DNA from: Streptomyces sp. P3
Lineage (GTDB): Bacteria; Actinomycetota; Actinomycetes; Streptomycetales; Streptomycetaceae
Assembly (NCBI RefSeq): GCF_003032475.1
Contig: NZ_CP028369.1
Span: 3,782,001-3,846,000 of the forward strand
Reading direction: 5' to 3'
DNA length: 64,000 nucleotides
The notes beneath the pieces are model-generated. The model had not been told where the DNA came from. It did no database searches and worked only from the letters and a program-made list of their open reading frames with translations. This document shows, in pieces, positions 10,319 to 64,000 of this stretch (within the stretch, counting starts at the first letter, position 1; each line of letters starts with the position of its first letter). Position numbers and translations under genes: made by a program.

Positions 10319-10741
10319 TCAGTACCAGCCGTTGGCCTGCCAGAAGGTCCAGGCGCCGACCGGGCTGCCGTAGCGGGAGTTCATGTAGTCCAGGCCCCAC
10401 TTGATCTGGGTCTTGGCGTTGGTCTTCCAGTCGGAACCGGCCGAGGCCATCTTGGAGCCGGGCAGGGCCTGGACGAGGCCGTAGGCGCCGGAGGAGGCGT
10501 TGGTGGCGTCGACGTCCCAGCCGCTCTCGTGCTTGACGATGTTGGAGAAGGCCTCGTACTGCGCGGCGTCCGGGATCATCTTGTGCGCGATCGCCTGGGC
10601 CTTGGAGGCGGAGGACGCCGACGTCGTCGCGGCGTGGGCCGGGGCGGCGGACAGTGCCAGACCCGCGGCGGCGGCGGCCACGGCGACGCCGGTGAGGGCC
10701 TTCTTCGGGGAAGCGATGCGACGGATGACGGAGACGGACAC
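10319..10741 (-). CDS. Secreted transglycosylase-like SLT-domain protein
   Basis: A 140-residue protein with GTG start after AAAGG. A twin-positive N-terminus and alanine-rich hydrophobic stretch end in AHA, giving a Sec signal peptide of about 37 residues. The mature domain has FSNIVKHESGWDV (catalytic Glu), NASSGAYGLVQALPG and WGLDYMNSRYG, the small SLT/lysozyme-like fold common in Streptomyces secreted wall hydrolases. It probably cuts peptidoglycan glycan strands outside the cell. Its long structured leader and strong terminator suggest a separately controlled single gene. Confidence 0.87.
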   Translation of the reverse strand: MSVSVIRRIASPKKALTGVAVAAAAAGLALSAAPAHAATTSASSASKAQAIAHKMIPDAAQYEAFSNIVKHESGWDVDATNASSGAYGLVQALPGSKMASAGSDWKTNAKTQIKWGLDYMNSRYGSPVGAWTFWQANGWY

Positions 10742-11077
10742 GAAGAACCTTTTCTTTCGGGAACGGTGGCGGTCGCCTGCATGCCGGAGTCACGCGGTGC
10801 GTGGCCGCACCGCGTGGTGTGCGGTGAGTGGCTGCATGCCGCGGCGCCGAGGCCCGTGGGCTCGTCGGCGCCGTGCGACGTCATCCAGAGAAACAGGATC
10901 GGCCGCTGCCCGCAAAGACCCCTTTTGCTAGTGGACGTCGTATGTCGGATGCGGGCCGCCGGTGTGGCGTGGCTCTCAATGCGCAGGTCAGGAGCCTAAA
11001 TGGCATGCACATGGCATCCATTTTGCTCGACTAGTCAGGTTAGTAGGTGATGTGGGTCATGTGGGGTGGTTCACCGG
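10742..11077 (-). other. Structured leader and intergenic region upstream of the transglycosylase gene
   Basis: No gene found. On the minus strand there is a perfect 11-base stem with a 4-base loop (10791-10801 with 10806-10816), flanked by two copies of CTGCATGCCG (10777-10786 and 10832-10841). A second hairpin, GGCGCCGA...TCGGCGCC, lies at about 10844-10872. Cell-wall hydrolase genes of Streptomyces often have riboswitch leaders, but I could not match this to the ydaO/c-di-AMP consensus. Confidence 0.5.
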
Positions 11078-12013
11078 TCAACGGTGCTCGGGGGCCGTCC
11101 GAGGGGCCTCGAATGTGACCGCGGTCTCGAAGGCGGCCCGGCGGGTGGCTCTGCGCAGTGCCTTCAGCACCGCCGGACCGAGCGTGCACGTCAGCAGTAC
11201 CGTGACCAGCGCCCGCCCCAGGTCCCAGCCCAGGGACGTCGCCACGCAGTACGCCACGAAGCGGGCCAGGTTCACCGGGACCGTCCCGTCCGGATCGAAG
11301 GCGACGCCCGAGGCCAGCGTGCCCATGAAGGGCCAGCCGGCCAGGTTCATCGCCGTGCCGTAGGCGAAGGCGGCCAGGAAGCCGTACACCGCCAGCAGGA
11401 GCAGTTCGGCACGGCCGCGCAGGCGGTCGCCGCCCGGCAGCAGGCCCGCGCCCATGGTGAACCAGCCCATCGCCAGCATCTGGAACGGCATCCACGGGCC
11501 CACCCCGCCGGTGAGCAGCGCGGACGCGAACATGGTCACCGAGCCGAGGACGAAGCCGAAACCCGGACCGAGAACCCGCCCGCTCAGCACCATCAGGAAG
11601 AACATCGGCTCGATGCCCGCCGTCCCCGCGCCGAGCGGACGCAGCGCCGCGCCCGTCGCCGCCAGCACGCCCAGCATCGCCACCGCCTTCGCGCCCAGCC
11701 CGGACTCCGAGATCGTCGCCGCCACCACCGCCACCAGCAGCACCAGCAGGCCCGCGAAGAGCCAGGGGGCGTCCTGGGCGTGGGCGTTCAGTGCGGAGGC
11801 GGGCGGGGCCAGGAAGGGCCATCCGAAGGCGACCACGCCCACCGCGCCGACCAGCGTCAGCGCGGCGAGGGAGCGCGGGCCCAGCCGGACGGGACGGGGC
11901 CGCCGCCCGGCCCGGGGAGTCTGTCCGGGCCGGGTAGGCCGTTCGGGTCCGGGGCACCGTCCCGTCCGGGGACGCCGTCCGGGACGGGGGCGCCGTCCGG
12001 GTGGGGCCGTCAT
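11078..12013 (-). CDS. ECF transporter substrate-binding S component, predicted for cobalamin
   Basis: A 311-residue membrane protein starting at the ATG that overlaps the preceding stop (ATGA). The first 45 residues are an unusual Pro/Arg/Gly-rich repeat (GRRPRPGRRPRTG). Then follow about six hydrophobic helices including PMFFLMVLSGRVLGPGFGF, as in actinobacterial ECF S components. It is the last gene of an operon led by a cobalamin riboswitch, encoding also EcfT, fused EcfA and two surface proteins. Comparative genomics has named such an actinobacterial B12 transporter CbrTUV; I infer that this is its T (specificity) subunit. Confidence 0.8.
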   Translation of the reverse strand: MTAPPGRRPRPGRRPRTGRCPGPERPTRPGQTPRAGRRPRPVRLGPRSLAALTLVGAVGVVAFGWPFLAPPASALNAHAQDAPWLFAGLLVLLVAVVAATISESGLGAKAVAMLGVLAATGAALRPLGAGTAGIEPMFFLMVLSGRVLGPGFGFVLGSVTMFASALLTGGVGPWMPFQMLAMGWFTMGAGLLPGGDRLRGRAELLLLAVYGFLAAFAYGTAMNLAGWPFMGTLASGVAFDPDGTVPVNLARFVAYCVATSLGWDLGRALVTVLLTCTLGPAVLKALRRATRRAAFETAVTFEAPRTAPEHR

Positions 12014-56382: not shown

Positions 56383-56597
56383 TTAGATCACGGAACGGTA
56401 ACGGCGCAAGCCTGTTCGCTGATCAGCCGCTCCGCCGAGCGTGAGCTGCTGGCCGCCCTCGCTCCACAGCCACTCGGCCGCCTGCCAGGTGTTGGACTCG
56501 GTGGGGACTGGGTCGGCGGTGAGCGTGGCGTTCTCGTCCGCGCGGGCCGTGTTGAGCCGCTCGGCGCGCTCGCACAGGCGGCACACCCGCGCGTGAG
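56383..56597 (-). pseudogene. C-terminal remnant of an unknown gene cut by an IS3 element
   Basis: The minus strand reads ARVCRLCERAERLNTARADE, NATLTADPVPTESNTWQAAE, WLWSEGGQQLTLGG, ending RRYRSVI. Upstream its frame is interrupted exactly where the IS3 left end begins. Family not recognised; the CxxC suggests a zinc knuckle. Confidence 0.35.
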
Positions 56598-56883
56598 CTG
56601 CACCCTGTTTCGTAGAGTCCCTGATGCCAGGGTTACGATCCTGGCGAGGAGAACCACGTCGCCAGCACCGCGGAAGTACCCCGACGAGCTGCGTGAGCGC
56701 GCGATCCGCGAGGTCCGCGCCACTGGTCGTCTCGTCGCGCACGTCGCGAAGGACCTCGGCGTCCACAAGGAGGGCCTGCGACAGTGGATCCGCCAGGCCG
56801 AGGCGGACGCCGGGGAACGGGACGACCGGCTGAGCACGGCGGAACTCGAAGAACTCAAGCAACTTCGCAAAGAGAACGCCGAG
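56598..56883 (+). mobile_element. IS3-family remnant: left end and N-terminal orfA
   Basis: Begins with TGAGCTGCACCCTGTTTCG, like the TGAACTGCCCC left end of Streptomyces IS3 elements. A transposase OrfA segment follows: PRKYPDELRERAIREVRATG, LVAHVAKDLGVHKEGLRQWI and ELKQLRKENAE, where it stops abruptly. OrfB and the right end are missing. Confidence 0.75.
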
Positions 56884-57104
56884 TCTGGTCGAGGAGGAGG
56901 CCGACGATCCGGTCGTAGGACTCCAGCGCGATCTGTTTGAGCCGGGCGAAGATGCCGAGCGCAGGAGCTGCAGCACTTGTCCATGACGATCTGGTCACTG
57001 ATGCGTGGGCGGTGGCAGCCCAGGGGATACTCCGGCCGCTGGGGCAGCAGGGCTGCGAATTGGCCCCAGAGTGGTTCGGTCAGCCATGATGGCAGTACAG
57101 GCAC
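56884..57104 (-). mobile_element. IS5-type transposase remnant with internal deletion
   Basis: Minus strand: VLPSWLTEPLWGQFAALLPQ, RPEYPLGCHRPRISDQIVMD from the N-terminus, then, after a deletion and frame change, GIFARLKQIALESYDRIVGL. This is the N-terminal third of an IS5-family transposase of the Streptomyces type. It is truncated where the IS3 fragment starts, so one insertion or deletion joined the two. Confidence 0.72.
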
Positions 57105-57353: not shown

Positions 57354-57920
57354 ATGGCGCGTCGCAATCCCGAACGTCCGGTGTACGGATTCACGGTTGC
57401 GGCTGCTGTCGGCGCTGTCCCGGCTGCACGTCGCCAAGTTGTCTTGCTGGCACAGGACTTGGGTCTTCCGTTGTCGGACCAGATCCTGGAGACCGTCGAG
57501 TTGCTGGCTGGCGAGGTGATCGCCAATGCCGTCCTGTACACGGAGGCTCCATGTGAGGTCTCTGTGACCTCGGCCGGTGAGCGGCTTCGTGTCGAGGTCA
57601 CGGACACGGACGCATCGTTGCCGCGCGTAGTTGAGGCTGGACCGAATGACGAAAGCGGTCGGGGCCTTCAGCTTGTGAAGGCATTGTCAGACGCCTGGGG
57701 GACGCGACCGGAACCGCCGGGCAAGACGACATGGTTCGAGATCATGCTGGAGCCGTCGACCGACGGCTTGGGCGACAACTCCGTCGATGCACCGCCCTCG
57801 CCTCGTGCGGATGAAGCCGCCGTGCGACGAACTGAGTGCCAGGCTCGTATGACGTCGCCGACCAGCTCGGGGTCGTCGTTCGTCCCAGCAGCCCCTGGGA
57901 AGCGGCGCCAAGCTGCCTGA
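57354..57920 (+). CDS. ATP-binding (HATPase_c_2) protein, anti-sigma/SpoIIAB-like
   Basis: A 188-residue protein with GAGGTGAGG upstream of its ATG. N box ELLAGEVIANAV, G1 VEVTDTDASLP and G2 ESGRGLQLVKAL define the Bergerat ATP-binding fold of RsbW/SpoIIAB-type kinases, of which Streptomyces has dozens. The family domain ends near residue 130. The remaining 55 residues are low complexity and may be an extended read-out. It lies between the IS scars and the convergent peptide operon; its partners are unknown. Confidence 0.82.
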   Translation: MARRNPERPVYGFTVAAAVGAVPAARRQVVLLAQDLGLPLSDQILETVELLAGEVIANAVLYTEAPCEVSVTSAGERLRVEVTDTDASLPRVVEAGPNDESGRGLQLVKALSDAWGTRPEPPGKTTWFEIMLEPSTDGLGDNSVDAPPSPRADEAAVRRTECQARMTSPTSSGSSFVPAAPGKRRQAA

Positions 57921-58064: not shown

Positions 58065-59426
58065 TCAGTCCGGGCACCGCTCGTAGTGCAGCCCGGGGGC
58101 GCGGTCGAGGTTGAGGATGAAACTGTCAATCAATGCCCCGGAGTCGCCCCTCGGTTTGATTGGCAGTGCAAGTGTGTAGCCGTCCGCCGTGTACGTCGTG
58201 GAGCTGGTGCGGGCCAGACGGTCGCGGGTGCCGCGCCGCCAAAGGTAGAGGGATCCTCCGCTGCTGGTCAGGCGCACGGTGCCAGGTACCTCCCCGCAGG
58301 CGTATGTGCCGACCGGTGTATGCGGCGCATCCTGCTCAGCCTTGCGGTCATCCGCCGCAGTAATTTTCGGCGTCGACTGGGCGCGAAGGACACGGGACAG
58401 GAGTTGGCTCGGGGCGGTCCTGGGGTGGCGGGTGAGGTCGGCCATGGCGGTGGCAGTGACGTGGTCGGCTGCGACGCCGGAGTGGTTGGACAGGCAGACG
58501 ATGCGGAGCCCGGTGCTGGTGAGGCGGGCGGCAGCGGAGAAGCCCTGCTCGTGACCGTAGTGGAAGACGGCGGTGCGGCCGGGGCGCCCATCGGCGTAAA
58601 GGCCGGCTCCGTACGTGAACGGGGCGTGGTCGCTGGGCCGGTAGCTGAGGTGTTGCCCGAACGGGAGCGTGCTTTCCGGTGTCGTCTGCCATTCGTGCCA
58701 GAGGTGGCCGAGCCAGCGGTCCAGGTCAGTGGCGGTGCACCACAGCGAGCCTGGGCCGGGCAGAGTGACCGGGCGCTGCTGGTGGACCCAACCGGTGGCG
58801 GTGCGTCGGTAGCTGGACGCGGCGCCGGGGATGACCTCACGCGGATCACTCTTGAAGCGGGCGGAGGACATACCGAGCGGGGCGAAGACCTGTTGCTTGG
58901 CGATCTCCTGCAGCGAGGCGCCGTGAACGTGCCTCAGGACCTCCGCCACTAGGAGGTAACCCGTGTTGCTGTAGAGGAACCGGCCCGGTTCCACGGCCCG
59001 GTCGCGCTGGCGGTAGGCCAGTTGCAGCAGGTCGTCGGCGGTGTAGTGGTCGAGGTCACGGAAGCCGGCGAGGGAGAGCAGGGATTCGGCGTCGCGGACG
59101 CCGCCGTGGTGCTGGATGAGTTCGGCGACGGTCACGCCGGGGACGCGGAAGCGGGGCAGGACGCTGTCCACGGCGCGGTCGAGCTGGAGGAGCCCGTCAC
59201 GGGCGGCGCGCACACACAGGTACGCGGTGATCTGCTTGGCGACAGAGCCGACGTTGAAGGCGGCTTTCTCTGCGATGGGCGTGTCCAGTTCGAGACTGGC
59301 TGCCCCAGCGTGCGCCTGCATCGCCGGTTCGTCGGCTGGGTGGATGCGCAGGACGAGACCAGGTTCCGACGTTCCGTCTGCGGGCTTGATGGCTGTGGAG
59401 GCTGTAAGGGAGGGGGAGTTGTTCAC
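58065..59426 (-). CDS. Cytoplasmic serine hydrolase of the beta-lactamase/DD-peptidase fold
   Basis: A 453-residue protein; GTG overlaps the stop of the HExxH gene (GTGA). Active-site SxxK is S61-V-A-K64 in FNVGSVAKQITAYL, and YSN is at 152-154 (FLYSNTGYLLVAE). A C-terminal beta domain of about 110 residues follows, as in class C-related peptidases. It lacks any signal peptide, unlike wall-active relatives, so it may act on a peptide in the cytoplasm, such as the product of this operon. Last gene of the leftward run. Confidence 0.85.
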   Translation of the reverse strand: MNNSPSLTASTAIKPADGTSEPGLVLRIHPADEPAMQAHAGAASLELDTPIAEKAAFNVGSVAKQITAYLCVRAARDGLLQLDRAVDSVLPRFRVPGVTVAELIQHHGGVRDAESLLSLAGFRDLDHYTADDLLQLAYRQRDRAVEPGRFLYSNTGYLLVAEVLRHVHGASLQEIAKQQVFAPLGMSSARFKSDPREVIPGAASSYRRTATGWVHQQRPVTLPGPGSLWCTATDLDRWLGHLWHEWQTTPESTLPFGQHLSYRPSDHAPFTYGAGLYADGRPGRTAVFHYGHEQGFSAAARLTSTGLRIVCLSNHSGVAADHVTATAMADLTRHPRTAPSQLLSRVLRAQSTPKITAADDRKAEQDAPHTPVGTYACGEVPGTVRLTSSGGSLYLWRRGTRDRLARTSSTTYTADGYTLALPIKPRGDSGALIDSFILNLDRAPGLHYERCPD

Positions 59427-60343
59427 AGGCCGAGGGCCTCTTGGTGTACGGCGTATAGACGCTGCCGCAGGCCGGGGTCCGAGACGAGGGAGAGCGCGTC
59501 GGCGTGGTCGTTGGCGGTCGTGGAAAGGAGTCCGCGTTGCTGGTTCAGATAGGCGGCCAAGAAACGGTGTACGTCCCCGGTGGTCTCCTCCAGGACACGG
59601 GCGGTGTAGATCATGGTCAGGGGGAAGGCCCAGCAGGCGTGTAGGAAGCCGAAGGCGGGGCGCATCGTTTTCTTCCACGGGGAGTGGAACCGCGCCTCGT
59701 CGCTGATCTTGCAGGCGGTCGCGGCCAGGGCGTCGTTGAGCCAGTTGTGGCCTGCCTCGTGGATGAGATCGCGGGCAAGGACGACGGGGTCGCCGACGTG
59801 GTCGCAGAAGATGGTGCCGGGAAGACGGGTAATGGTCCAACTGTCGAGAGTGTCGCCGATCCTCTTGCGGCGCAGCAGACAGACGACGACGGCGTGGTCT
59901 GCCAGCAGGGAAGCGAATCCGCTCCGGGAGCCGGCGGCGCACGCGGCGGTGACCAGTTCCCGTAGGGCCGGCGGGGCAGCGGTGGTGTCGGGGCCCAGCA
60001 CGTAGTACGGGGTCTCGGAGACCCCCGAGCGAGGCAAGCGGTCCAGGTCGGGAGCGACCACGACGCGCGGGCCGACGACCGTGTGCGTGGACAGTGCCTG
60101 GGTGTCCGCGTCCGGGCGGGTGCCGTACCAGTCGAAGACGGCGACGTCGCGCGCTCGGGCGGCGGCCTCGGCACCCTCAAGGACGTGGTGGGCCAGGCAG
60201 TAGTCGACGGCGACCGCCGACGGCACCTCTGTCTCGGCCGGATGCTGAGCGGCGGACTGCATGAGGGTGCGGATCTGGCGGGTGCGGTCGCGGTGCAGGG
60301 TCCGGATCGGCGCGAACGAGAAGTCGATGGTGGATGCGTCCAC
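59423..60343 (-). CDS. HExxH-motif putative peptide beta-hydroxylase
   Basis: A 306-residue protein; GTG 60343 has GGAAGGA eight bases upstream. The metal site is H195-E-A-G-H199 in ARDLIHEAGHNWLND, with a further candidate ligand H235 in PAFGFLHACWAF. It fits the HEXXH motif proteins now annotated as aKG-HExxH-type peptide beta-hydroxylases in RiPP clusters. These are 2-oxoglutarate/iron enzymes rather than proteases. The gene lies 105 bases after a 49-residue candidate precursor peptide. Confidence 0.82.
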   Translation of the reverse strand: MDASTIDFSFAPIRTLHRDRTRQIRTLMQSAAQHPAETEVPSAVAVDYCLAHHVLEGAEAAARARDVAVFDWYGTRPDADTQALSTHTVVGPRVVVAPDLDRLPRSGVSETPYYVLGPDTTAAPPALRELVTAACAAGSRSGFASLLADHAVVVCLLRRKRIGDTLDSWTITRLPGTIFCDHVGDPVVLARDLIHEAGHNWLNDALAATACKISDEARFHSPWKKTMRPAFGFLHACWAFPLTMIYTARVLEETTGDVHRFLAAYLNQQRGLLSTTANDHADALSLVSDPGLRQRLYAVHQEALGL

Positions 60344-60447
60344 GGGGCGGGTCCTTCCGACGGGGCTGGGCCTGGGGCCGGACCAAGTGGTGGCCCGGCC
60401 CCAGATGGTGCTCACCTGTGCTCTGCTGCCGGTGTGGTGCGTGGAGC

Positions 60448-60597
60448 TCAGGCCGCGTCGGAGACCGCGGAGGCCTCGGTGGTCGGCCATCCCTCGGCGG
60501 AGACGCTGGAGGTGTGAGCGGTGGTGCGGACGGTCTCGTCCTCGCCGCGCAGGTCGTCCACGGCGGCGAGGAAGGCGCTGATCTGGTCGTTGTCCAT
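60448..60597 (-). CDS. Candidate RiPP precursor peptide, 49 residues
   Basis: Begins MDNDQISAFLAAVDDLRGED, an acidic leader-like helix, followed by a Ser/Thr-rich stretch with TVRTTAHTSSVSAEGWPTTE and ASAVSDAA. There are no cysteines. It lies between a protein kinase gene and the HExxH putative peptide hydroxylase, the expected place for a substrate. A likely core is the last 25 residues, with eleven Ser/Thr, one His and one Trp as modification targets. The ribosome binding site (AAAGGA) is rather distant. Confidence 0.68.
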   Translation of the reverse strand: MDNDQISAFLAAVDDLRGEDETVRTTAHTSSVSAEGWPTTEASAVSDAA

Positions 60598-60709
60598 GAG
60601 GGTGCTTGTCCTTTCCAGACGGAGATGTTGGGACCGTGCACTGGGTGGCACCGCGTGGTGCGGCGGCGAGCGGGCGGTGGGCACTGCGCTCTCCTTCCTG
60701 CAGAGTGGG

Positions 60710-61606
60710 TCAGTGACCGCGCTGGGCAAGCGCGGTGGCTGGGGTGGCTGTTCGCCGGAGGGCATCGCGCAGATCGCTCATCGTCGGCCGGTCCTCCGGC
60801 GCGTGGGCGAGGGCTGCGGAGATCACCGATCGGAGGGTGGCGGGGGCGGCGTCGAGCTGCGAGTGGCCGTGGCGGGGGATGTCAGCGCATACGAAGCGGT
60901 AGACCAGAACCCCGAGGCTGAAGACGTCGGCGGCGGGGGTGGCGCGGTCGTAGGAGGTCGAGTACTCCGGCGGCCAGTGGACCTCCGGGCCCCGCCTGGC
61001 CGGCCCGCGCGGAGTGTCGACTCGGCGAGCGGCTCCGAGATCGGTGATCAGTCCGTGGCCGGCGCGGACGAGTACGTTCTCCTGGTAAACGTCGCGGTGC
61101 ACGATCCCGCGTTCGTGAAGGGTCCGCAGCCCTTCGGCGACGTCGGCCAGGACGCACAGGCCGAAGGCCACGTTCTCGCCGAGGCCAGCGGTGGCGGCGG
61201 CGAGTCTGGGCTGGAAGTTGCCGTCGGCGCAGTAGGGCATCGTGTACCAGTCGAACCGATCGGCGCTGCCCTCCTCCAGCAGTGGCACGACGTGGTCGGC
61301 GTTCGTGGCGGCCCGGGCGACGTCGATCTCGTGGCGGAAGTCCTCCCGGGTCAGAGCCCGTTCGGCCTCGGTCATCGCCGCGTACCAGTAGAACCCATAG
61401 GCAGCTCTGCGGTCCTCCTCGTCGAGTTCGGCCAGGACGTGATTGCCGCCGAAGCCGGCCTTGAGGACCACCGGAGCCGCACTGCCGTGGCTGACGAGCA
61501 CCAAGGTGCTGGCCCGGGTGAACGAGAGCAGGTCGTGCACCTCCCACCCGGCGGAACGGATCTGGTCGAGAACCCAGGAAGCGGGATGCAGCGGATGAAG
61601 TCGCAT
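60710..61606 (-). CDS. Eukaryotic-type protein kinase without membrane anchor
   Basis: A 298-residue kinase. VVLKAG carries the ATP-binding lysine (K49); HRD is H170-R171-D172 in GIVHRDVYQENVLV with N177; the DFG position reads DLG (189-191); PPEY is the APE-like motif; DVFSLGVLVYRF follows. There is no sensor or transmembrane part. In class III-V lanthipeptide systems a kinase phosphorylates Ser/Thr before elimination, so this enzyme could act on the neighbouring peptide. No lyase is visible in the window. Confidence 0.85.
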   Translation of the reverse strand: MRLHPLHPASWVLDQIRSAGWEVHDLLSFTRASTLVLVSHGSAAPVVLKAGFGGNHVLAELDEEDRRAAYGFYWYAAMTEAERALTREDFRHEIDVARAATNADHVVPLLEEGSADRFDWYTMPYCADGNFQPRLAAATAGLGENVAFGLCVLADVAEGLRTLHERGIVHRDVYQENVLVRAGHGLITDLGAARRVDTPRGPARRGPEVHWPPEYSTSYDRATPAADVFSLGVLVYRFVCADIPRHGHSQLDAAPATLRSVISAALAHAPEDRPTMSDLRDALRRTATPATALAQRGH

Positions 61607-61617
61607 GGTGCGGCTCC

Positions 61618-62262
61618 TCACGTTCGGGCCGCTCGCGGGACGGCTGCACGCAGCCGGTCCACGCAGGCGGCAACCAGCAGGTCGAGGTCTGACTCGGTGG
61701 CGCACGAATGCCGCAGCACGGGCAGACCTGTCGCTTCGGACCACGGGGTGGCGGCCGCCTCGTACAGCTCGGTGAGCCGGGCCGCGGTCGGCAGGTCCTC
61801 GCCGAAGCGGCGCGGCGTGGACCGGCGGGACAGCCGTATGCGGCAGAGCTCGGGTGGGGTGGTCAGCAGCACGGTCAGCTCGGCCCGGGCTGCCGTCACA
61901 CCGGCCAACTCCCGTACGTAGTCGGCAACAGGACGATCATGCAGGAGGGCGAGCAGGCACGCCGTCGACAGGGTGAGTCTGTCGGCGATCAGTGGCCCGA
62001 CGGACCTGGCGGGGACGAGATTGTGGCGGGCATGGAGCTCAAGATCTCGGCGGACGGCGGCCACCGCCTGGTCGCTGTCCTGTGCCGGTCGGCCGGAACG
62101 CAGCCCGATGATGGTCCGGGTCGCGTCCAAGGACAGCCACGAGAACTGGCCGATATGGCCGACGTGGATGCCCTCGGCCGCGGTCGAGCGCAGGAGTCGG
62201 TCACGTAACGTGCTCTTTCCCGCTCCTGCGATGCCCTCCAGGGCGAGTAACACGAGGCTCAC
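61618..62262 (-). CDS. P-loop kinase of the thymidylate-kinase-like family
   Basis: A 214-residue protein with Walker A EGIAGAGKST (residues 9-18), a DRLTLS region (DR motif as in dTMP kinases) and an Arg-rich lid CRIRLSRRSTPRRFGED. Its GTG overlaps the stop of the upstream oxygenase gene. dTMP-kinase-like proteins in biosynthetic operons may phosphorylate small substrates. The role here is unknown. Confidence 0.8.
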   Translation of the reverse strand: MSLVLLALEGIAGAGKSTLRDRLLRSTAAEGIHVGHIGQFSWLSLDATRTIIGLRSGRPAQDSDQAVAAVRRDLELHARHNLVPARSVGPLIADRLTLSTACLLALLHDRPVADYVRELAGVTAARAELTVLLTTPPELCRIRLSRRSTPRRFGEDLPTAARLTELYEAAATPWSEATGLPVLRHSCATESDLDLLVAACVDRLRAAVPRAART

Positions 62263-62987
62263 TCCCCGGGCTTCTCGGCGATCAGCCAGCTGATGAACTT
62301 CGAGACCCGGCCATGGGTCACCGGCGCCGTGCCGTGGGTGAGCTGGGAGCCGTAGAGAAGCGCGGTGCCCGGCGCGGGGCTCACGTTCCACCGGGTGCGA
62401 GGCATCGCCGTGAACCAGTCGGCGGAGTGGTCCGCTCCGTCGTGGGCCAGCCACATGCCATCCGCGTAGCCGTCTCTCCCGTATTCCAGGCGGGTGTTCC
62501 ACAGATGGTCGCTGGAGCAACTCTCGACGTAGAACGTGCCACCGGCCTCCGCCTCGCTGATCACGACGCTGATTCCGGCGATCTGCCGCGGCCAAGCCAG
62601 CGGGTCGGGGGCGATGCCGTCGACGTGGCCGGTGATGTGCTGGCCAGGACCGTATTCGACGTACGTCCAAGGGCGGCAGGTGGTGATCGACGGCATGACA
62701 CGAGACAGGGCCGGGCGGGCGCGGTCGAAGGCGTGCTGCAGCAGCTTCTCGGCCTCGCCGGGTACCTGTGGGACTTCCACCCGCCCGGCTGGCTCGTACA
62801 CGGCCATCGCCTGCTCGTGGGAGTGGCCGGGGATCTCGTGGATGGAGGTCGTCCGCCCCGTGTCGAAGTGGGCAGGCCCCTTGTCTGCGAGGAAGCCGCT
62901 CATCACGGTGGCGAGTCGGGCTCGCTCGTCGTCGTTGAGGAACCCCTCGACGCTGCCGACCGTGACGGTCTCGGCTATGTGGATCAC
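62259..62987 (-). CDS. 2-oxoglutarate/Fe(II) oxygenase
   Basis: A 242-residue protein; GTG 62987 has AGGAGG eight bases upstream, the strongest site in the operon. The metal triad is H121-x-D123 in HITGHVDGIAPD and H218 in SQLTHGTAP, with R227 (HGRVSKF) likely binding 2-oxoglutarate. The strand pattern VEYGPGQHITGHVD...GGTFYVE is that of prolyl-4-hydroxylase-like enzymes. It probably hydroxylates a peptide or amino acid made by this operon. Confidence 0.85.
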   Translation of the reverse strand: MIHIAETVTVGSVEGFLNDDERARLATVMSGFLADKGPAHFDTGRTTSIHEIPGHSHEQAMAVYEPAGRVEVPQVPGEAEKLLQHAFDRARPALSRVMPSITTCRPWTYVEYGPGQHITGHVDGIAPDPLAWPRQIAGISVVISEAEAGGTFYVESCSSDHLWNTRLEYGRDGYADGMWLAHDGADHSADWFTAMPRTRWNVSPAPGTALLYGSQLTHGTAPVTHGRVSKFISWLIAEKPGE

Positions 62988-63625
62988 GTGCCGGTCCTCC
63001 TCGTGTCGAGCGCACGGCGGACGTCGTCCAGGCCGGTGCAGTGATTGAGCCAACTGGCCACGGGCTGGCGGGTGGTCACGGTCGGGTCGGCCCACAGGGC
63101 CAGGAGCTCGCCGGTCAGCGGCAGCTGCTCCGGGCCGGGCAGTGCCTCCCGCATGGCCAGGACCTCGTCGAACCCGTTCAGGGTGGGGCATGGGGTCTCG
63201 TGCTGGACGGCGAAGACCCGCCCGAGTCTGACGGCCGCCGCATTCCCACAGACGCGCAGGAGCGTTTCCGTGGCATCTTTGCGCCGGTATCCGCGGCACT
63301 CGGCCTGAGCCCATCCGGCTGCCACGGCCGCGGACGCCGAGGCGATGTAGCAGGTGGCGCAGCATGCCCCGGTGGCGCTGGGACAAGGCCGATGGTGATC
63401 CGGGAGCGTGGCGGCGACGTCACCGAGGGCGGCCCAGGCGGAGTCGGGCAGCAGCTCGTCGACAGCGCGGCGGAGCCCGTGGGCCGCGCTGCCGTGGTTG
63501 CAGCACGCCGGACCTGGCTCCGGCCGCGGACCCGGCTGGAGCGCGGGCTCGATGAACAGGGCGTGGAAGTACACGATCCGCCCCAGTAACTGGTGAACGG
63601 TCTGCGTGTCCGCGGCGCTGATCAC
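62984..63625 (-). CDS. Unrecognised cysteine-rich protein of the peptide operon
   Basis: A 213-residue mostly helical protein, GTG overlapping the preceding stop (GTGA). Cysteines cluster in PACCNHGS and CPSATGACCATCYI, with another in ECRGYRR, suggesting metal binding. Other features: TVHQLLGRIVYFHALFIEPA at the N-terminus. No family recognised. The tight overlaps on both sides show it is part of the same pathway. Confidence 0.75.
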   Translation of the reverse strand: MISAADTQTVHQLLGRIVYFHALFIEPALQPGPRPEPGPACCNHGSAAHGLRRAVDELLPDSAWAALGDVAATLPDHHRPCPSATGACCATCYIASASAAVAAGWAQAECRGYRRKDATETLLRVCGNAAAVRLGRVFAVQHETPCPTLNGFDEVLAMREALPGPEQLPLTGELLALWADPTVTTRQPVASWLNHCTGLDDVRRALDTRRTGT

Positions 63626-64000
63626 GCCAGCACTCCCTCGACAGGGCCTGCGGCGGCCTGCGGCACCGGGCAGGAGCATCCGCCCTGTGCCGTGGGCTGC
63701 TTGCTGCGCAAGGCCTCCGCGATGACCGCGGTGGCCGCGTCCACGGTGTCGAAGTACACCGACCAGTCGTGGCCGGGGGCCGGCAGCAGAGTCAGGTCCA
63801 ACACGGGCGTTGTCCGGCTCGTTGTCTCGCACGTCAGTTCGGCGCGCCCGATGGTCACTCGCACCGCCGGTGGTAGGGAAGTGGCGGCCACGGTGACGGC
63901 CCTGCACATAGCGGCGGCGGTCGCGGCGTACTCGGCCGGGGTGCGAGGGAGAACGCCGATCCGACGCTCGGTGGGCCGTAGTTCCAGGTCGGCGTAGGAG
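63622..64000 (-). CDS. Unrecognised protein, 5' end outside the window
   Basis: The frame is open at the right edge and ends in a GTGA overlap with the next gene. 125 residues are visible, from SYADLELRPTERRIG to the C-terminus; they contain PAEYAATAAAMCRAVTVAAT, GHDWSVYFDTVDAATAVIAE and a terminal GGCSCPVP. It could be a small regulatory or carrier-like alpha/beta protein. No motif identifies it. It continues the leftward peptide operon beyond the window. Confidence 0.7.
   Translation of the reverse strand, partial: SYADLELRPTERRIGVLPRTPAEYAATAAAMCRAVTVAATSLPPAVRVTIGRAELTCETTSRTTPVLDLTLLPAPGHDWSVYFDTVDAATAVIAEALRSKQPTAQGGCSCPVPQAAAGPVEGVLA

Follow-up and report, generated by a model that had tools for sequence, protein, structure and literature searches.

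A leftward operon at the right end of a 64,000-nucleotide stretch of the Streptomyces sp. P3 chromosome surrounds the gene of a 49-residue peptide. The stretch, here called the window, covers bases 3782001-3846000 of a genome that is one contig of 9.85 Mb. We propose that the operon makes a triceptide-like, ribosomally synthesized and post-translationally modified peptide (RiPP). It would do so in the steps set out below, with an unfused pair of enzymes of the ChlB/ChlH type and with exchangeable modules that handle phosphate or phosphonate. We give this reading a probability of about 0.7. That the operon is a RiPP cassette with the 49-residue peptide as its substrate is almost certain.

The window edge falls inside the operon and the gene of a key enzyme lies beyond the right end; the right flank was added to the analysis. 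Read leftward, the order is Nudix hydrolase, radical S-adenosylmethionine (SAM)/SPASM maturase, Cys-rich protein, 2-oxoglutarate (2OG) oxygenase, P-loop kinase, protein kinase, peptide, alpha-ketoglutarate-dependent HExxH enzyme (aKG-HExxH) and serine hydrolase (SerH). An earlier note on the window had described a RiPP-like cassette of eight leftward genes. The precursor is real and conserved together with the enzymes, and all frames are present, but the supposed eighth gene is only the C-terminus of a 629-residue radical SAM/SPASM enzyme. To the right the note expected lyase, transporter and protease genes; we found the radical SAM gene and the Nudix gene instead. Overlaps do join most genes, if by a narrow majority. 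The window has seven junctions: four 4-nt overlaps (radical SAM/Cys-rich, Cys-rich/2OG, 2OG/P-loop and HExxH/SerH) and three gaps of 11, 112 and 104 nt.

The overlooked enzyme changes the likely chemistry. The note had seen a hint of phosphorylation or dehydration. Because the cassette encodes a radical SAM/SPASM maturase related to the cyclophane synthase ChlB, a carbon-carbon cyclophane is a more likely core step than the dehydration of Ser or Thr. The gene set itself is more than a chance neighbourhood, since purifying selection acts strongly on the core of the peptide and the nine-gene order of the window recurs in 19 of 60 loci.

The precursor peptide

The 60 loci used for comparison come from a contig scan with an alignment of the HExxH protein, a selection that peptide loci without an HExxH gene escape. 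By BLAST and a pattern scan together, the precursor was found in 57 of them; three (L111, L116 and L119) gave no peptide by either route. The pattern required TAHT[S/T] and a Trp, and 55 of the 60 loci passed it. Hence part of the apparent invariance of the core was built into the scan. The TRHTS peptides of L062 and L064 were recovered by BLAST. As the note had read it, the peptide of the window is free of Cys, and its frame has an ATG start and a ribosome-binding site. The frame is also open in relatives. Exceptions are decayed copies, for example L051/L099, with a fragmented HExxH gene and CTG where the peptide should start.

A block of 14 residues, RxTAHTS[S/N]x5W, is nearly fixed, and the tail after it varies in sequence and length. 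Among 15 sequences from loci with the kinase-bearing gene set of the window (type I), the proportion of nonsynonymous differences (pN) in the core block is 0.017 against a synonymous proportion (pS) of 0.221. For the leader, pN is 0.156 and pS is 0.207. The expectation of a conserved leader and a variable core is thus reversed: the core is fixed, and leader and tail vary. One leader residue, Phe9, is invariant in all 16 diverse peptides aligned. In the same peptides the core motif lies inside the chain, with 12-27 residues between it and the C-terminus.

At E<=0.01, a profile search yielded 186 homologue clusters. Among the best 120 of these, T[A/R]HTS with a Trp at +9 from the His is present in 120 of 120. 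Product names in these 120, where given, are hypothetical or uncharacterized. One of them is tagged 391037.Sare_1949, which we take to be Salinispora arenicola.

Two further, distant peptide subfamilies provide the strongest clue to the chemistry. The L059 peptide reads TAFTSSV...W, as do all 16 clusters that match it (one of these is probably the L059 gene itself). The L057 peptide reads TAHSSAV...W, as do all four clusters that match it. The L059 peptide gene lies directly before the L059 radical SAM and HExxH genes; that of L057 lies about 6.5 kb before its radical SAM and HExxH genes, a looser link. Taken together, [H/F]-[T/S]-S, an omega1-X2-X3 pattern, is present in all 140 clusters read (120, 16 and 4, from 186, 16 and 4 found). 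These subfamilies, and the L123 peptide, which is without Trp, indicate that the conserved element is a His or Phe followed by Ser at +2.

The L059 subfamily is also of interest in its own right. In the L059 peptide (L059:9698-9886, minus strand) and clusters P0121-P0136, Phe naturally takes the place of His where the cross-link is proposed (TAFTSS...W), and the same exchange occurs in Streptomyces silvensis and Nocardia abscessus.

The radical SAM/SPASM enzyme

The maturase scores above the cut-off of both the radical SAM family (PF04055, 43.4 bits) and the SPASM domain (TIGR04085, 36.9 bits, cut-off 27). The three Cys of its CX3CX2C cluster motif (C38, C42 and C45) are invariant in 27 sequences. 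The window holds only the end of this enzyme, and the structure work was done on the 90% identical relative from L060. The best sequence match of the L060 enzyme in the PDB is the radical SAM domain of ChlB (E 1.2e-12). Its model (mean predicted local distance difference test, pLDDT, 82.8; predicted template modelling score 0.86) matches the ChlB:ChlA complex 9gmc second in Foldseek, at E 2.5e-15, and also matches CteB (5wgg) and SuiB (5v1s).

An extra C-terminal domain, residues ~440-629 in L060, is conserved across the 27 aligned enzymes, with GNIN, SCxGH and a terminal CxC whose C612 and C614 are invariant. Neither Pfam nor the Foldseek matches listed contain a separate match for the domain (~440-605). 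The radical SAM enzymes of L057, L059 and L123 align over residues ~22-403 only.

In a tree of 54 radical SAM enzymes of the family and three outgroups, type I and L078-L080 form one clade (0.99); the other main cassette kind (type II, described below) lies outside and is not itself a clade. The deep node is weakly supported (0.10). Distances of the cassette genes correlate with those of the radical SAM gene at r 0.80-0.96. These correlations show joint inheritance, not function.

Oxygenases, kinases and accessory proteins

The note's families hold for the HExxH protein (TIGR04267, 61.3 bits, cut-off 40, which places it in the family), the protein kinase (PF00069, 69.9 bits) and SerH (beta-lactamase family PF00144, 114.9 bits). 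For the 2OG enzyme (2OG-FeII_Oxy_3, 22.3 bits) and the P-loop protein (AAA_33, 25.9 bits) the scores stay below the cut-offs, 27 in both cases, but the catalytic residues are invariant in 50 and 24 loci, respectively. The catalytic residues are likewise invariant for the protein kinase in 25 loci, for SerH in 23 loci and for the HExxH protein (H195, E196 and H199) in 11 aligned sequences. SerH has no obvious signal peptide by eye, and it has no match in 4 of the 25 kinase-bearing loci, one of them the decayed L099.

This genome has no other match to the Nudix gene at E<=1e-10, and among the 25 kinase-bearing loci 22 carry it, with 69-97% identity. We therefore dropped the idea that it is a stray housekeeping neighbour; the high identity leaves an older, general role possible. 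The model of the Cys-rich protein is helical and of low confidence (pLDDT 60.2). Its N-terminus matches a 295-residue protein of L123 at E 8.4e-05, over 21 columns and with a probability of 60%. We also considered it as a homologue of the 248-residue first-gene product of the sister cassette, for which profile comparison gives no support.

Positions of all these features are collected in Table 1.

Table 1. Features of the cassette and its downstream side (window positions)
Feature	Position	Strand	Remarks
Nudix hydrolase gene, upstream of the radical SAM gene	65547-66041 (window-equivalent)	-	PF00293 67.6 bits; right flank
Radical SAM/SPASM maturase, C-terminal part	63622..64000	-	full gene 629 aa, window-equivalent 63622-65511
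Cys-rich protein, 213 aa, without known family	62984..63625	-	conserved GRxxYFH, CCxH, CxnCCxxC
2OG-Fe(II) oxygenase	62259..62987	-	H121xD123...H218, R227 invariant
P-loop kinase, thymidylate-kinase/AAA_33 type	61618..62262	-	GxxGxGK
Stand-alone eukaryotic-type protein kinase	60710..61606	-	K49, HRD 170-172, N177, DLG 189-191 invariant
Ribosome-binding site of the precursor gene, GGAAAGGA	60609..60616	-	read from sequence
49-aa precursor peptide	60448..60597	-	ATG at 60597
Near-fixed precursor core block R24-TTAHTSSVSAEG-W37	60487..60528	-	
H28-T29-S30, proposed cyclophane motif (omega1-X2-X3)	60508..60516	-	putative cross-link
aKG-HExxH-type peptide beta-hydroxylase	59423..60343	-	TIGR04267; HEAGH
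Serine hydrolase (SerH), beta-lactamase/DD-peptidase fold	58065..59426	-	S61xxK64, Y152SN, H289xGH invariant
HATPase_c_2 gene	57354-57920		between transposase remnant and cassette
Transposase remnant	56593-56940	+	HTH_Tnp_1 61.9 bits; ~1.1 kb beyond the downstream end

Proposed pathway

The sequence of reactions given here is our inference, and so, in particular, are the roles assigned to the P-loop, Nudix, Cys-rich and SerH proteins. The precursor would be bound through its short leader, with the invariant Phe9. The radical SAM enzyme would then join His28 to the beta-carbon of Ser30 in H-T-S, which would give a three-residue cyclophane. A cyclophane at [H/F]-x-S is probable, given the homology to ChlB and the H/F-x-S pattern.

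The aKG-HExxH and 2OG enzymes would hydroxylate residues in or beside the core, sites that we suggest from the enzyme families. The HExxH enzyme, at least, probably acts on the peptide too. The protein kinase, to judge by its family, may phosphorylate Ser or Thr or a newly made hydroxyl; the chances that the peptide is its substrate are even. A new hydroxyl is an attractive acceptor because phosphoryl or nucleotidyl transferases (protein kinase, APH-like, NTP_transf_2) recur beside the hydroxylases. For the thymidylate-kinase-like P-loop protein and the Nudix protein, family membership would fit further phosphate or nucleotide chemistry. SerH, as a hydrolase, may cut or release the product.

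Distribution of the cassette

Within the genus, the HExxH gene occurs in 27 of 392 genomes (E<=1e-10). The protein kinase occurs in 8 of the 392 (E<=1e-45), all 8 among the 27. The family is rare, since the radical SAM profile reaches E<=1e-60 in only 3 of 394 genomes of the class. The 60 loci belong to Streptomyces, Kitasatospora, Micromonospora, Nocardiopsis, Nocardia, Actinomadura, Salinispora and unclassified actinobacteria, including one metagenome-assembled genome. Some of them are redundant: L124 repeats L108, L113 and L073 come from one strain, and several of L034-L059 may duplicate members of L060-L119.

Besides the 19 loci with all nine genes in the order of the window, three miss only the SerH match and two only the Nudix match. 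Peptide, kinase and HExxH gene are thus found together in other genomes, the co-occurrence that the note had proposed to look for. The order radical SAM-2OG-HExxH, with or without a BLAST-level peptide match, is seen in 26 loci. The remaining orders are radical SAM-peptide-HExxH-SerH (2), radical SAM-peptide-HExxH (1), radical SAM-HExxH (2) and kinase-peptide-HExxH (1), and in four loci the HExxH gene stands without other enzymes in order.

When the region of the window is compared with 13 diverse type I loci, the conserved stretch runs from Nudix to SerH and then ends. The compared flanks reach about 3-5 kb on the upstream side and at most ~9 kb on the downstream side. The sole match in them is the neighbouring HATPase gene, in 2 of the 13 loci. 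No lyase or cyclase is found in the conserved cassette, and these flanks have no conserved lyase, exporter or further protease.

Several observations concern the movement and decay of the unit. A transposase remnant lies near the cassette, which fits a horizontal spread. The HExxH proteins of L062 and L064 (Micromonospora) are 72% identical to that of the window, against 60-67% for many Streptomyces copies, which suggests transfer between genera. Further decaying copies are L049, where the radical SAM gene is split by ~1.7 kb, and L054 and L116, which have a partial HExxH gene without a radical SAM gene.

The sister cassette and outlying loci

A second main kind of cassette (type II) is present in 28 of the 60 loci (29 rows, as one contig appears twice). 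In all 29 rows, seven extra genes stand upstream of radical SAM-2OG-peptide-HExxH. Scored on one representative per gene, they encode a 248-residue protein not assigned to a family, a thymidylate-kinase-like P-loop protein (PF02223, 41.4 bits), a phosphoenolpyruvate (PEP) mutase-like protein (PF13714, 136.3 bits), a Nudix protein (47.2 bits), a TylF-type methyltransferase (100.4 bits), a 2-hydroxyacid dehydrogenase (68.2 bits) and a nucleotidyltransferase (PF01909, 25.9 bits). This kind has no protein kinase, and the core chemistry can therefore do without one.

The PEP-mutase-like protein resembles the enzymes of phosphonate pathways. Its nearest solved structures are PEP phosphomutase 5unc (E 3.9e-47) and phosphonopyruvate hydrolase 2dua, and PKxNS is conserved in 29 of 29 rows. 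Unlike true PEP mutases, which carry EDK, as 5unc and 2dua do, it reads EDS in all 29 rows of the alignment. The L105 protein also stays below the TIGR02320 cut-off (189 of 319.55 bits). Hence the sister cassette lacks the combination of EDK...NS and a TIGR02320 score above the cut-off by which we would call a phosphonate pathway, and the gene is not part of the cassette in the window. In the radical SAM tree the PEP-mutase kind lies outside the clade of type I and L078-L080. The kinase module may therefore have replaced the PEP-mutase module, a direction that hangs on the weak deep node.

One locus, L123, from a genome of another family, mixes both kinds. It has a TAHTS peptide, 2OG enzyme, TylF, P-loop protein, radical SAM enzyme, HExxH enzyme, methyltransferase, Nudix protein and protein kinase. 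A nucleotidyltransferase on the opposite strand ends in a PqqD-like stretch (19.7 bits, below the cut-off of 23.4), which would suggest that this enzyme reads the precursor. Across cassettes the hydroxyl-modifying transferase differs: protein kinase in type I and L123, APH-like in L057, and NTP_transf_2 in type II, L078 and L123.

Some outlying loci are notable for their surroundings. At L123 (G401:C75), positions 393-2579 and 10375-11469, we observed a C39-peptidase ATP-binding cassette exporter beside the cassette and the nucleotidyltransferase with the PqqD-like, RiPP-recognition end. Around L059 there are an ATP-grasp ligase, a TylF-type methyltransferase, a 2OG enzyme, a P-loop protein and a frame resembling a pyridoxal phosphate-dependent decarboxylase. 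The TAHSS-type loci L057 and L058 have an APH-family gene and frames that look, by eye, like a nucleotide-sugar dehydrogenase, an epimerase and a glycosyltransferase; they are possibly a glycosylated variant.

Comparison with described systems

No published description of this gene set turned up in the literature searched (on the enzyme combination, relatives of ChlB and Salinispora locus tags), which agrees with the note's view that no named RiPP class has it; subscription papers were mostly outside the search, and an earlier mention is possible.

The closest system is ChlA/ChlB/ChlH, in which, according to the portions of the sources available to us, radical SAM and aKG-HExxH enzymes are fused (Morishita et al. 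2024; Ruel et al. 2025; PMC12636437) and the ChlH-type enzyme hydroxylates a peptide that bears the cyclophane (PMC12636437). That enzyme is reported to need the cross-link. The likeness lies in the enzymes. By sequence our radical SAM enzyme is nearest to ChlB among solved structures, and ChlB is also among the top matches of the model; the HExxH enzyme is nearest to ChlH. The relation to ChlB is shown by these comparisons, that to ChlH weakly. In contrast to the fused enzymes, the two are separate genes here: in all 55 of the 60 loci that show both, the matches are separate and lie apart. Furthermore, the radical SAM enzyme has an additional C-terminal domain of ~200 residues, the peptide has a single HTS motif, and the cassette adds 2OG, protein kinase, P-loop kinase, Nudix, SerH and Cys-rich genes.

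Triceptides made by three-residue cyclophane-forming enzymes (XncB, OscB, MscB, HaaB and YhhB) share with our cassette a SPASM radical SAM enzyme, a short precursor and an aromatic-x-residue motif. In the accessible part of the work that describes them, the link runs from residue i to i+2 for XncB, OscB and MscB; the atoms joined are Phe C4 and Ser C-beta for MscB, His C2 and Ala C-beta for HaaB, and His C2 and Arg C-beta for YhhB (PMC11002830). Phe-x-Ser and His-containing motifs are therefore both published, whereas the His-x-Ser of this cassette is not among the motifs in that part of the source (PMC11002830). Unlike those systems, ours has a radical SAM enzyme that scores under the cut-offs of the named families and a core that is nearly invariant across genera. 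The cassette works like a triceptide pathway and lies outside strict membership of any named cyclophane family.

Other comparisons are more distant. FxsA/FxsB is the FxSxx-COOH system. The FTS of the L059 subfamily resembles FxS and our enzyme scores against the FxsB model, but the motif is internal here and the FxsB cut-off is not reached. We rejected membership in FxsA because of the internal motif and because six peptides gave no FxsA-type match in NCBIfam at E<=10, assuming that the library holds an FxsA model; no other NCBIfam peptide family matched the six at that threshold. The class III/IV lanthipeptide enzymes LanKC and LanL likewise bring a eukaryotic-type kinase into a peptide cassette. 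Here the kinase is separate, the peptide has no Cys and no lyase or cyclase is conserved, which places the cassette outside that class.

Weighing the proposal

Several findings weigh against the cyclophane pathway proposed here. Among the NCBIfam models listed for cyclophane-forming enzymes and other whole maturases, there is none whose cut-off the radical SAM enzyme reaches (YhhB 102.2 of 445 bits, AmcB 90.9 of 425, FxsB 88.6 of 370, GrrM/OscB 67 of 310, XyeB 51.5 of 450). Its highest score, 132 bits, above any cyclophane family, goes to a sulfatase-maturase model, and the top structure match of the L060 model is the sulfatase maturase 4k36 (E 6.2e-16). The best solved match of the HExxH profile, ChlH (8s5f), is weak (E 0.0038) and confined to the active-site stretch, aligned over HExxH, SPWR and LHA. 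The sister cassette lacks the protein kinase. The L123 peptide keeps TAHTS but has Met in place of Trp. In the compared flanks of type I loci neither an exporter nor a dedicated leader protease is conserved, and a near-fixed core is atypical for an antibiotic-like RiPP.

The last two points would sit well with a different role, in which the peptide is a scaffold. Its HTS...W core would be cross-linked, oxidised, phosphorylated or loaded, and then mostly cut away, leaving a small product that resembles a cofactor, a signal or a toxin. A near-invariant core between a variable leader and tail, flanks without a conserved exporter or immunity gene, and a sister cassette whose PEP-mutase-like, dehydrogenase, methyltransferase, nucleotidyltransferase and Nudix genes are present in all 28 distinct loci speak for such a scaffold. 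The cassette in the window, however, has no clear small-molecule enzyme apart from the P-loop kinase and the Nudix protein, and SerH, the only candidate protease, is without a match in some kinase-bearing loci, as given above. We consider the scaffold possible but unlikely. A second alternative concerns the bond itself. The radical SAM enzyme could make a long-range His/Trp or Ser/Trp link, a darobactin-like ether or an epimerised residue; CteB and SuiB, both among the model matches, make bonds other than cyclophanes, and Trp37 keeps its +9 distance from His/Phe in three peptide subfamilies. Yet the exchange of His for Phe with Ser fixed at +2 is the pattern of three-residue cyclophanes, there is no Cys for thioethers, and the L123 peptide keeps TAHTS without the Trp, which makes a different bond improbable.

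It is a little more doubtful still that the transferases serve self-protection, with the kinase (and in relatives the APH-like enzyme and the nucleotidyltransferase) keeping the active product masked within the cell and with SerH or Nudix as the unmasking enzyme. Such masking would explain why cassettes carry alternative hydroxyl-modifying transferases, but no export gene is conserved, and the PqqD-like end of the L123 nucleotidyltransferase speaks for precursor recognition. The lanthipeptide-like route, phosphorylation of Ser or Thr by the kinase with later elimination, is very improbable. The core is Ser/Thr-rich and the kinase weakly matches LanL (42.8 bits) and LanKC (24 bits), far under the 650 and 575 those models require. 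Cassettes of the PEP-mutase kind have the same core motif without a kinase, and with no lyase or cyclase in the conserved cassette and no Cys in the peptide we rejected dehydration of this type.

Significance

More broadly, and tentatively, we suggest that the loci form an unusual superfamily built on a near-invariant cyclophane peptide that several actinobacterial genera share. Its phosphorus modules would be interchangeable: a kinase on the one hand, a PEP-mutase-like/dehydrogenase/methyltransferase/nucleotidyltransferase set on the other. The products would be peptides with phosphate, nucleotidyl or phosphonate groups, and RiPP-phosphonate hybrids, possibly the first, could be among them; the literature searched on such hybrids yielded no RiPP-phosphonate combination. 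They may act as a signal, a cofactor or a narrow inhibitor, not as a diversified antibiotic.

For genome miners, the short precursor with its fixed motif and 186 homologue clusters defines a testable family. The unfused ChlB/ChlH-type pair allows cyclophane formation and hydroxylation to be studied apart, and the stand-alone protein kinase comes with a likely substrate, the peptide encoded alongside. RiPPs and phosphonates would meet in the sister cassette if its product is indeed the same core carrying a phosphonate or a nucleotide. Finally, the near-fixed core makes one ask why evolution would keep a tailored peptide as constant as a cofactor.

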